Of a stretch of DNA of 64,000 nucleotides, positions 2,003 through 55,520 are shown piece by piece. The DNA lies in assembly GCF_029269265.1 (NCBI RefSeq), contig NZ_JARIXP010000002.1, positions 483,469 through 547,468 on the forward strand, given 5' to 3'. A program made the position numbers and the translations under genes. The DNA is from Rheinheimera sp. 1928-s (GTDB lineage Bacteria > Pseudomonadota > Gammaproteobacteria > Enterobacterales > Alteromonadaceae). How positions within the stretch are numbered: the stretch's first letter is position 1; each line of letters opens with the position of its first letter. The notes below the pieces were generated by a model that worked only from the letters and a program-made list of their open reading frames with translations, made no database searches and was not told where the DNA came from.

Positions 2003-2473
2003 ATGATGACTAAACAATCGAAACAAGAAGCACTGATCCAGGCCTTTAAATCCTTGCTAAAAGAAGAGCGTTTTGGCTCACAAAGCGATATCGTGGACGC
2101 GCTGAAAGCGGAAGGCTTTGACAACATCAGCCAATCAAAAGTGTCCCGTATGTTAAGCAAATACGGCGCAGTACGCACCCGTAATGCAAAGCAGGAGATG
2201 GTGTATTGTTTGCCGCCTGAATTGGGTGTGCCCACCACCAAAAGCCCGTTACGCCAATTAGTGCTGGATATAGAACATAACGATGTGATGATTATTATCC
2301 GCACCAGCCCCGGCGCTGCTCAGCTAATAGCCCGTTTATTGGATTCTGTTGGTAAAGCCGAAGGCGTGTTGGGCACCATAGCTGGTGATGACACCATTTT
2401 TATCGCACCTACCAGTGTTAAAAATATCAACTTCACCTTGAATAAGGTGACTGAGCTATTTGAAAAGGTCTGA
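2003..2473 (+). CDS. argR: Arginine repressor
   Basis: Hexameric arginine-dependent repressor of arginine biosynthesis, also an accessory factor for cer-type recombination in E. coli. 156 residues, normal length. The N-terminal winged helix includes [19 protein letters not shown] and the recognition helix [17 protein letters not shown]. The C-terminal arginine-binding oligomerisation domain includes [13 protein letters not shown] with the conserved GDDT. The start is ATG at 2003 or the adjacent ATG at 2006; no clear Shine-Dalgarno sequence separates them. The 3' end overlaps the convergent DyP gene by 18 bp. Confidence 0.96.
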
Positions 2474-3385
2474 ACCGGCTTGTTCTTCCAGAAAATTGAT
2501 AGAGGGGGCAAAAAAAGCAGCCCCCGCTTCAATCTGACAATAGTCCAACAGCAAATCTGCATTGTCAGTGCCTAAGCCTAAGCGATTCACTAACCAGAGC
2601 GGTATATCTACAGCGTTCGCAGAAAAACCTACAGCAATCATACCTTGCGAGCGAATATCAGCCACCGGCATATTTTGCCATAAGATCTGTTTACGCCCGG
2701 ACTCATTCTCTAATGCCGTTTTATCAGCATGAGAATTTGCCTGACGTTGGGCTGAAGGCAGCAACTGACCATCCAACTTGTTTCGTCCCATTACAGCTTC
2801 CTGTTGTGGCATCGTTAATTGTTGCCAGCGCTGTAAGTCATATTGATAGCGCAACATATACACATAGCTGCCAGCACTCATATGGCTTTTAGGTTCATTG
2901 CTTATCAGCGCACACAAACGCCGTTGTTTGCCTTTGGGATTATCTGGAGCGTCATGAAACCCGGTCAGACTGCGGCCATCCAGATAACGAAATGCATGCA
3001 CTTGCTCGTACAAGTCCACATGCTGCTGCAGCAAATGGTAAATTTGCTGGGTAGCAATATGAATGACATCAAAACGGTCGGCACGAATTTGGATCAGCAA
3101 ATCCGGTGCCACTACAGGTAAGCCTGCAAGATTGTCCACAAAATCCGGCCAAGGTTCTGGTTGTTGCTCTGGATATAAATGAAGCCAGTAGTTTTGTCCT
3201 ATCGCCACAACCACATTCAGCATTGCCTCAGAAAATTGATCCGATAAGCGCTCAACCAACATAGGTACTTTAGCTAACTGCATTCGTACGTAATGCTCAT
3301 GACCATCCAGGGCATTCAGCAGCACATAACAACAATGCAAGTTTGCTTCGGCACAAATGCCTGATTGTTCCCGGGCCATATCCAT
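2456..3385 (-). CDS. DyP-type haem peroxidase family protein with altered distal site
   Basis: 309 residues, about the length of E. coli YfeX-type dye-decolorising peroxidases. From memory it aligns throughout: N-terminal [22 protein letters not shown] around residue 145 (family GFxDGTxNP, catalytic Asp kept), SHADKTAL with the proximal haem-ligand His at 219, C-terminal FFAPSINFL. The conserved distal arginine (family IVRQSLP or ILRDNMP) is replaced: here ILWQNMP, Trp236. The following glycine of GFxDGT is also alanine. No signal peptide, so probably cytoplasmic. It ends inside the convergent argR 3' end (18-bp overlap). Family membership is well supported; whether it still works as a peroxidase is uncertain. 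Confidence 0.85.
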
Positions 3386-3482: not shown

Positions 3483-3504
3483 TTTGTGAGATATATCTCA
3501 CAAA
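3483..3504. promoter_or_regulatory. 22-bp perfect palindrome, candidate UvrY/GacA box for csrB
   Basis: The core TGTGAGATATATCTCACA is a perfect inverted repeat, extended by two bases each side. It resembles the upstream activating sequence of GacA/UvrY response regulators (Pseudomonas TGTAAG-N6-CTTACA; E. coli csrB TGTGAG...CTTACA, as I recall). Its centre lies about 180 bp upstream of the predicted csrB start, close to the far-upstream position of the E. coli site. Function is inferred. Confidence 0.7.
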
Positions 3505-3672
3505 TCAGTAAGCCAATGTAGTTTTTATTGCAGGCAACACTCCAATAACAAATATCTAAATATATGATTAATAATGAAATACCTCTAAAAAAGTACAGAT
3601 TACAATAATGTTTCACTACAAGTATTTAACAAACAAGGTCCTGTTCCAGTGATAAATGTACGATAATTACTT

Positions 3673-4004
3673 CGTCGCTGGATGTGACGGCTAAACAAGA
3701 TGTTTAGCAGGACAAGCTACAAGAGGTGGCAGCAGGACGCTTGGATACCAAAGGATTATGCAGGGTAGCACAAGGATGAACGGGACAGGCTCCGGATTGA
3801 GCATACATCTTCAGGATGAAGATACAAGGAAAAGGACTCTGCCGGAGGCAGAAGGTACTCTCAGGATGAGAGTTAGATGGAGAAGGATGCTGCGGGGATG
3901 CAGTCGGATTGTTCAGGATGAACACAGGGATGATCCATCAGGGATAGTGGTTGGAAGGACGCCACCAAGTTTTAGGGGCCGCGAAGTTCGCGGCCCGTCT
4001 TATT
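3673..4004 (+). ncRNA. csrB: CsrB/RsmZ-family CsrA-sequestering small RNA
   Basis: A roughly 330-nt non-coding segment with 22 GGA triplets before its terminator. Several sit at the tip of perfect hairpins: ATCTTCA-GGA-TGAAGAT (3807-3823), TCTGCC-GGA-GGCAGA (3838-3852), ACTCTCA-GGA-TGAGAGT (3857-3873), GTTCA-GGA-TGAAC (3911-3923). CAGGATG occurs three times, plus many AAGGAT, CGGAT and AGGGAT variants. This is the hallmark of CsrB-type RNAs, which titrate the translational regulator CsrA. A -10-like GATAAT at 3662-3667 suggests a start near 3673, where the first hairpin (CGTC...GACG) begins; the 3' end is a strong terminator. No open frame here has family support. The start is approximate, and the choice between csrB and csrC naming is arbitrary. 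Confidence 0.92.
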
Positions 4005-4006
4005 TT
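3976..4006 (+). terminator. Terminator of the CsrB-type RNA
   Basis: GGGCCGCG / CGCGGCCC 8-bp GC stem around AAGTT, followed by GTCTTATTTT. It ends the GGA-rich RNA gene. Confidence 0.88.
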
Positions 4007-4242
4007 CAGAGCAACCGCTTTTATTTATTTATTTGCAACCTTCCCCCTCACACATGCACCATCTCAAAGCATTTCTTGCGCCACTCTGAGGCAATTTAGA
4101 GTTTTCGCACTAACAATAATGTTGTTTTTTTCACCAAGGCTCTTTTCCTGTTTGAAAACAGCTGTTAGATTACAGGCGTTCTTTGCAAAATGATTTGGCG
4201 ACTGCACTAAAACAGCGCACAGGTCCGTGGCTAAGACCACAA

Positions 4243-4275
4243 GAAAAAACCCCGGAAGCTTACGCCGCCGGGGTT
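4243..4275 (-). terminator. Terminator downstream of amtB
   Basis: Read on the minus strand: AACCCCGG...CCGGGG followed by TTTTTTC. It lies 135 bp past the amtB stop, so the glnK-amtB transcript should have a long 3' untranslated region. Confidence 0.8.
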
Positions 4276-4326
4276 GTCTGATAAAGACAAAGGACAAGGA
4301 TAGACGAATTTGGTGGTACGAGTTTA

Positions 4327-4409: not shown

Positions 4410-5681
4410 CTACTTTACTGTCGATACAAATTCAGGATAGGCTTCTACACCGCACTCTGAACGATCAACACCTTCATATTCTTCCTGCTCTGTGACACGG
4501 ATACCCACTGTCATCTTCAAAGCAAACCACACTATAGAGCTGGCAACAAAAACCCAGACGAAAATAGTAGCAGCACCAGCCAGTTGACCCATTAATGAGG
4601 CTGACGGCTTGGTCAGAGGAACAATCAATAATCCAAATAAACCTACAGTACCGTGCACAGAAATTGCACCTACAGGGTCATCAATTTTTAACTTGTCTAA
4701 GGCCAGAATAGAACCAACCACTAACACACCGGCAATAGCACCGAAGATAGAAGCTTCTAATGGTGTTGGTGTAGAAGGTTCAGCAGTGATAGCAACCAGA
4801 CCAGCTAAGGCTCCGTTTAACGCCATGGTTAAATCAGCCTTTTTGAACAACAGCATAGACAAGCCAATTGCAGCAATAGTTCCGGCAGCGGCAGCTGCAT
4901 TGGTATTTAAGAACACCACTGCTACCGCATTGGCGTTAGCAATATCACCTAACTTCAGCACAGAGCCACCGTTAAAGCCAAACCAGCCTAACCACAGAAT
5001 TAATGTACCTAAAGCCGCCAGTGGCATGTTGGAGCCAGGGAATGCATGAGCTTTACCGTCTTTGCCATATTTACCTTTACGGGCGCCTAACAGGATCACG
5101 CCAGCTAAAGCAGCTGCGGCACCAGCCAAATGCACTATGCCTGAACCTGCGAAATCAGAGAAACCTAAGTCACCTAAGCTGTATAAACCAAACACAGACT
5201 GGCCACCCCAGGTCCACGAACCTTCCATTGGGTAAATCACACCTGTCATGACCACAGCAAAGGTCAGGAAAGCCCATAGCTTCATACGTTCAGCCACAGC
5301 ACCTGATACGATAGACATAGCAGTTGCTACAAACACCACCTGGAAGAAAAAGTCTGAAGCTTTGGAATAAATCGCTTTGCCTTCAAAACCATTTTCACGT
5401 TCGGCGAAACTGGTTAAAGTCTGAGCAACATCCACTTCGCCAATACCTGTTAAGAAGTAGCCGCCGCCATACATCAGCTGATAACCACAGACCAGATACA
5501 TCACACATGATACTGAGTACAACACCACGTTTTTAGTCAAAATTTCCGTGGTATTTTTTGCCCTGACTAAACCGGCTTCCAGCATGGAAAAGCCAGCCGC
5601 CATCCACATCACTAAAGCGCCACACACCAAAAAGTAGAAAGTGTCCATTGCAAACTGTAAATGATAAATTTGTTCCTGCAT
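4410..5681 (-). CDS. amtB: Ammonium transporter
   Basis: Inner-membrane ammonium channel of the Amt/MEP/Rh family, 423 residues with the usual eleven hydrophobic segments. Visible signatures are the N-terminal FSMLEAGLVRAKNT, the twin pore histidines in GSGIVHLAGAAA and ISVHGTVGLFG, and GWFGFNGGS. There is no obvious cleavable signal peptide, unlike E. coli AmtB. It follows glnK by 10 bp in one operon, the standard pairing: uridylylation-free GlnK plugs the channel when nitrogen is plentiful. Expression should come from the sigma-54 promoter upstream of glnK. Confidence 0.96.
   Translation of the reverse strand: MQEQIYHLQFAMDTFYFLVCGALVMWMAAGFSMLEAGLVRAKNTTEILTKNVVLYSVSCVMYLVCGYQLMYGGGYFLTGIGEVDVAQTLTSFAERENGFEGKAIYSKASDFFFQVVFVATAMSIVSGAVAERMKLWAFLTFAVVMTGVIYPMEGSWTWGGQSVFGLYSLGDLGFSDFAGSGIVHLAGAAAALAGVILLGARKGKYGKDGKAHAFPGSNMPLAALGTLILWLGWFGFNGGSVLKLGDIANANAVAVVFLNTNAAAAAGTIAAIGLSMLLFKKADLTMALNGALAGLVAITAEPSTPTPLEASIFGAIAGVLVVGSILALDKLKIDDPVGAISVHGTVGLFGLLIVPLTKPSASLMGQLAGAATIFVWVFVASSIVWFALKMTVGIRVTEQEEYEGVDRSECGVEAYPEFVSTVK

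Positions 5682-55157: not shown

Positions 55158-55520
<363 letters not shown>

Follow-up and report, generated by a model that had tools for sequence, protein, structure and literature searches.

A probable CsrB-type RNA of Rheinheimera: a compact form in one clade and a repeat-built long form at the orthologous locus in its sister clade

The DNA analysed here (the window) is a stretch of 64,000 nt from the 4.64 Mb genome of Rheinheimera sp. 1928-s, in which the RNA locus of interest occupies positions 3673-4004. Gene order around it is argR (2003-2473, + strand), a DyP-type peroxidase gene (2456-3385, - strand; Pfam PF20628 and PF04261), the inferred CsrB-type RNA (3675-4004, + strand) and an ammonium transporter gene, amtB (4410-5681, - strand; Pfam PF00909), with the peroxidase and transporter genes flanking the RNA and lying outside it. 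The gene adjoining the RNA has its closest counterpart in R. soli (98%), followed by eight other Rheinheimera or gammaproteobacterial records at 85-92%. We place the RNA by its match to the CsrB family RF00018, by a start (about 3675) estimated from the -10 hexamer and by conservation in 12 genomes; its terminator stem ends at 3996 and is followed by a T-rich tail, which gives about 322 nt from estimated start to stem end and agrees well with the interval 3673-4004 proposed in an earlier note on this DNA. Elsewhere in the window, a hairpin rich in G+C at 4237-4279, accompanied on the - strand by a run of T, to which a plasmid antisense RNA family matches weakly (E 0.8), is probably the terminator of the amtB side, and a class A RNase P RNA lies at 55158-55517 on the - strand (319.1 bits in a default Rfam scan).

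What sets the locus apart is its GGA content. The earlier note had claimed 22 GGA triplets, at least four perfect GGA-tipped hairpins and a strong terminator, and all three statements hold up on recounting. Exactly 22 GGA (and two TCC) are found in 3673-4004, and the densest 300 nt of the + strand hold 22 as compared to maxima of 11 (+) and 10 (-) elsewhere in the window; dinucleotide-preserving shuffles of 3673-3984 (n=500) contain 13.8 on average and 20 at most. Four hairpins with GGA in the loop have at least five Watson-Crick pairs (shuffle mean 0.12, maximum 2) and with G-U pairs allowed there are six (shuffle mean 0.9, maximum 4), so that many GGA motifs, several of them in hairpin loops as is typical of the class, are present at counts above those of all 500 shuffles. 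Along the + strand, these structures comprise a 5' hairpin of six pairs, one of them G-U, that carries GGA in its loop (3673-3689), ATCTTC-AGGAT-GAAGAT (3807-3823), TCTGCC-GGA-GGCAGA (3838-3852), ACTCTC-AGGAT-GAGAGT (3857-3873), GCTGCG-GGGA-TGCAGT (3889-3904; with G-U, its GGA kept in only 4 of 12 genomes) and TGTTC-AGGAT-GAACA (3910-3924). The intrinsic terminator (3976-3996, + strand) consists of the stem GGGCCGCGAAGTTCGCGGCCC, nine pairs of which eight are G-C around a loop of 3, with GTCTTATTTT directly 3' of it and a core that is invariant in 12 aligned rows. An intergenic, non-coding position with such a terminator is another feature of the class. Folding of the + strand is stronger than expected (z = -4.0), and none of 100 shuffles folds equally well.

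Upstream of the RNA, the perfect 18-nt palindrome TGTGAGATATATCTCACA (3485-3502), which is its own reverse complement, represents a putative activator site of the UvrY/GacA type that UvrY may bind. The -10 hexamer GATAAT (3662-3667, + strand), whose ATAAT is invariant in a 10-row alignment, lacks a consensus -35 hexamer 16-18 nt upstream, and a generic consensus promoter scan reported no promoter at the RNA start. From the palindrome centre to the estimated start it is 181.5 nt and, by the same rule, 179.5-181.5 nt in the 22 genus genomes; a GacA/UvrY palindrome far upstream of the promoter, as known for the class, is hence in place. Allowing one free base, the palindrome pattern was found in all 22 genus genomes (reversed control: 0). 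Perfect copies of TGTRAGN6CTYACA number three in the own genome, one at the RNA locus and a tandem pair ahead of a second Csr-type RNA (see below), and one mismatch adds 12 more (reversed control: 3 at up to one mismatch). Between palindrome and promoter, an IHF-like pattern matches exactly in 6 of the 22 genus genomes but not at the locus in the window, so an IHF site is not claimed. As for E. coli csrB, which needs IHF, the quoted part of PMC4682653 centres the UvrY site TGTGAGAGATCTCTTACA at -183/-182; located in the K-12 genome, this sequence begins at -191.

An Infernal search with RF00018, suggested as a check in the earlier note, was positive in one respect and not in another: it found a match at 3789-4028 (45.1 bits, E 7.3e-11) that spans model positions 1-356 of 356, but the score stays below the Rfam gathering score of 71 bits and thus short of family membership by Rfam's own cut-off. 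This is why the default Rfam scan of the window lists RNase P alone and no CsrB. In the own genome, RF00018 finds the RNA locus and nothing else at E <= 10, a threshold at which 8 of 14 control genomes give chance matches; at E <= 0.01, a match is left in one of the 14, E. coli. Of the 60 relatives searched, 34 give a match at E <= 0.01; nine reach the gathering score, none of them in the genus. With the stricter filters of the large search, 6 of the 22 genus loci are missed at E <= 0.01. As far as sequence goes, the homology signal and the other testable features are those of a CsrB-type RNA. Separately, four genomes from other families of the order (G036, G043, G046, G055) have 4-6 RF00018 matches each, partly regularly spaced, so tandem csrB genes seem common there.

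The genome also encodes the proteins that such an RNA would serve. UvrY (62% identical to its E. coli counterpart) is flanked by open reading frames that, by eye, we take to be uvrC and pgsA, an arrangement that corresponds to the order annotated in E. coli K-12. BarA is 41% identical over residues 1-913 of 918. CsrA, with a single match in the genome, has 89% identity with the E. coli protein across 61 aa and carries L4 and R44 (counted on the sequence), two residues highlighted in a figure legend excerpted from PMC7652899. CsrA and a BarA-UvrY (GacS-GacA) pair, which go with the class, therefore occur in the same genome.

Twelve genus genomes, the window included, share the compact form of the RNA: 322-323 nt to the terminator stem end and 21-23 GGA, with palindrome, -10 and terminator kept in all of them. 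Of the window's 22 GGAs, 20 occur throughout the 12 genomes and two do not (3896 in 4/12, 3953 in 11/12), and invariant columns are more frequent within GGAs (63/66) than in the rest of the RNA (162/236; Fisher p 1.8e-6 with columns treated as independent). Covariation within this form, with 2 of 97 predicted pairs changed on both sides, is too weak to serve as proof. With the compact RNA as a DNA query, two genomes, both from the genus, gave a match in a sample of 118 from the family; the long-form genomes G003 and G019 of the same sample did not. Across all 22 genus genomes, a GGA-dense stretch (18-23 GGA per 250 nt) lies 3' of the palindrome.

At the orthologous locus of the other 10 of these 22 genomes, the RNA has a different architecture. 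The nine complete long forms measure 534-699 nt and contain 33-43 GGA and 12-17 GGA hairpins, the tenth (G020) breaking off after 331 nt where its contig ends. The long forms carry 3.1-7.4 tandem copies of a unit of 49-52 nt by TRF, or 47-52 nt when cut hairpin to hairpin, and each unit holds two GGA hairpins with further GGAs between them (arrays at L047:1885-2134, L044:966-1215, L051:850-1109, L075:902-1198 and further loci). In an alignment of one unit from each of the 10 long-form genomes, 98.2% of cells are paired, a percentage biased towards the structure in that this was drawn from the same unit sequences, and 9 of 12 pairs changed on both sides. The unit covariation score is 0.637, whereas shuffles give 0.266 (none of 500 reaches the observed value) and slid partners no more than 0.128; further pair types (13 vs 12.7 in shuffles) show no excess.

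The address of the locus is shared by both forms. The peroxidase gene was found in 21 loci and in part in another (G007), and the transporter gene in 15 of the 16 loci displayed, G020 ending before it. A single branch with support 100/100 separates the two RNA forms in a tree of the peroxidase from 21 genomes, although the tree is rooted at midpoint only and gives no order of age for them. On balance, we lean towards a scenario in which one Csr RNA locus stayed in place, marked by the UvrY palindrome, the DyP peroxidase gene and amtB, while the RNA body was exchanged within the genus, the compact 322-nt form in one clade facing a 534-699-nt form in the sister clade that would have arisen by tandem amplification of a 47-52-nt module. 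CsrA-binding capacity would then be set by copy number per transcript, with GGA density and hairpins - rather than sequence - being kept. This repeat-built long form is the less ordinary part of our finding, and literature titles on CsrB, repeats and csrB evolution include, among the matches listed, none on repeat-built Csr RNAs.

Beyond the genus, a model of the repeat unit (R1) gave matches at E <= 0.001, under the stricter filters, in 25 genomes of an order sample of 295, among them one known long form (G003); the other 24 are not claimed as arrays, and the own genome gave no match. In G023, from another genus of the family, an RF00018 match contains an array of a 26-nt unit in 5.8 copies with one GGA hairpin each (L013:1700-1849), which suggests that array growth in Csr RNA happened more than once. 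Three long-form RNAs also have perfect short tandem repeats, of 8, 8 and 6 nt, directly 3' of the terminator (L015:2009-2077, L017:1220-1306, L018:2007-2103).

A second Csr-type RNA is encoded in the own genome at about G000:C18:201265-201550 (bounds by eye), next to a gene that we presume to be that of a cytochrome c4. With its upstream region it spans L065:1501-1960 (G000:C18:201091-201550), and the two tandem palindromes of UvrY type before it, both perfect, lie at L065:1501-1518 and 1523-1540. BLAST finds it in all 22 genus genomes, at 86-100% identity in the window's clade and, with part of the query aligned, at 69-72% in the long-form clade, and a strict pattern for its core in 18 of the 22. 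In its intergenic stretch no Rfam Csr family matches at E <= 1, and the two Rfam matches there at that threshold belong to non-Csr families and lie upstream of the RNA. A model of it (R2) matched only 4 of the 295 sampled order genomes (the own genome, G003, G285 and, borderline, G233), so at that search sensitivity the second RNA looks narrowly spread.

Its existence with two perfect palindromes raises the option that the RNA at 3675-4004, though of Csr type by descent, is a lesser copy or one in decay, leaving the part of main CsrA antagonist to the second RNA, in line with the second body being common to both clades of the genus when that of the main RNA is not. We regard this as very unlikely, given that the main RNA has kept its palindrome, -10, terminator and 20 of 22 GGAs in 12 genomes and that the second is much poorer in GGA (9 per 250 nt vs 21). 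That the locus instead encodes a small protein on one strand, its GGA density being a by-product of codons, has in its favour two open reading frames over the RNA (113 aa on +, 73 aa on -). Pfam gives no match to either at E <= 0.001, however; a premature stop interrupts the + frame in 6 of 12 aligned rows, and this frame has its ATG start in the window only, while the - frame ends earlier than the window's in 7 of 12 rows, with two more lacking a stop in the part read. Both frames hence look spurious, just as the earlier note had anticipated for either strand. Since it is the GGA triplets that are conserved, whichever frame they fall in, and terminator and palindrome suit a non-coding gene, we reject the protein-coding reading as extremely improbable. 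Equally improbable to our minds is a structured, GGA-rich RNA that serves another purpose, such as binding a different protein, and resembles CsrB by convergence: the RF00018 score below cut-off and a CsrA binding predicted from sequence would allow for it, but palindrome position and the CsrA-BarA-UvrY set fit a Csr circuit, and within the RNA no other Rfam family matches at E 0.1 or better.

RNA sponges that soak up CsrA are a textbook bacterial switch, and a CsrB-type RNA of this kind, as claimed in the earlier note, is what the RF00018 E-value, palindrome distance, regulator set, GGA conservation and recurrence in 22 of 22 genomes argue for, as do the covarying GGA hairpins of the sister-clade form. 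By analogy to known systems we infer transcription, start site, UvrY dependence, CsrA binding and sequestration, and deem it very probable that the locus gives rise to an RNA of about 325-330 nt, activated by BarA-UvrY from the palindrome and titrating CsrA via GGA sites. In such a scheme, UvrY phosphorylated by the kinase BarA would bind at 3485-3502, rightward transcription would proceed from about 3675 and end at the hairpin 3976-3996, and GGA motifs on hairpin tips and between hairpins would bind several CsrA dimers, which would thereby be withdrawn from their mRNA targets as by E. coli CsrB.

CsrB-type RNAs with such features are already well known, and the Rheinheimera RNA adds one more. 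With E. coli CsrB it shares an activator palindrome at nearly equal distance, GGA hairpin tips, an intrinsic terminator, a covariance match and the very number of 22 GGA (as stated in the quoted part of PMC11882849); it differs in neighbours (syd and yqcC in K-12 vs DyP peroxidase and amtB) and in length (369 nt annotated in K-12 vs about 322 nt to the stem end). CsrB1 and CsrB2 of Shewanella oneidensis, according to excerpts from PMC3171408, likewise have an upstream UvrY box and many AGGA motifs and depend on BarA/UvrY, but form two neighbouring copies of 420 and 421 bp where the genome of the window has one. For csrB2, predicted at 421 bp, the same excerpts give Northern bands of about 700, 600 and 450, so long Csr transcripts are not unheard of. 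Pf1, Pf2 and Pf3 of Pseudoalteromonas fuliginea, with 25, 21 and 9 GGA, conserved upstream sequence and terminators, find a parallel - by description - in the Rheinheimera pair of a 22-GGA RNA and a second RNA with 9 GGA per 250 nt; for Pf1 and Pf2, the portion of PMC11882849 drawn on describes no match beyond Pseudoalteromonas. In Vibrio, CsrB dosage is also raised by duplication, albeit of whole csrB genes rather than of units within one RNA as in the Rheinheimera sister clade (PMC6262261, in part). That source puts family lengths at 100 to >400 nt, which the Rheinheimera long form (534-699 nt) exceeds, and in its accessible portion the word 'tandem' is absent and both uses of 'repeat' are unrelated. 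We found no literature on Rheinheimera together with CsrB, and among the matches listed for CsrB in Alteromonadales-type bacteria no title deals with the RNA of the window or with a repeat-built one.

For Rheinheimera, the RNA is the likely RNA arm of a BarA-UvrY-CsrA circuit, one that is invisible to a default Rfam scan although a palindrome search followed by GGA counting recovers the locus in 22 of 22 genomes. Behind one and the same promoter address stand 21-23 GGAs in the compact clade and 33-43 in those long forms that are complete, which turns comparison within the genus into a natural experiment on the number of CsrA sites that a sponge RNA requires.
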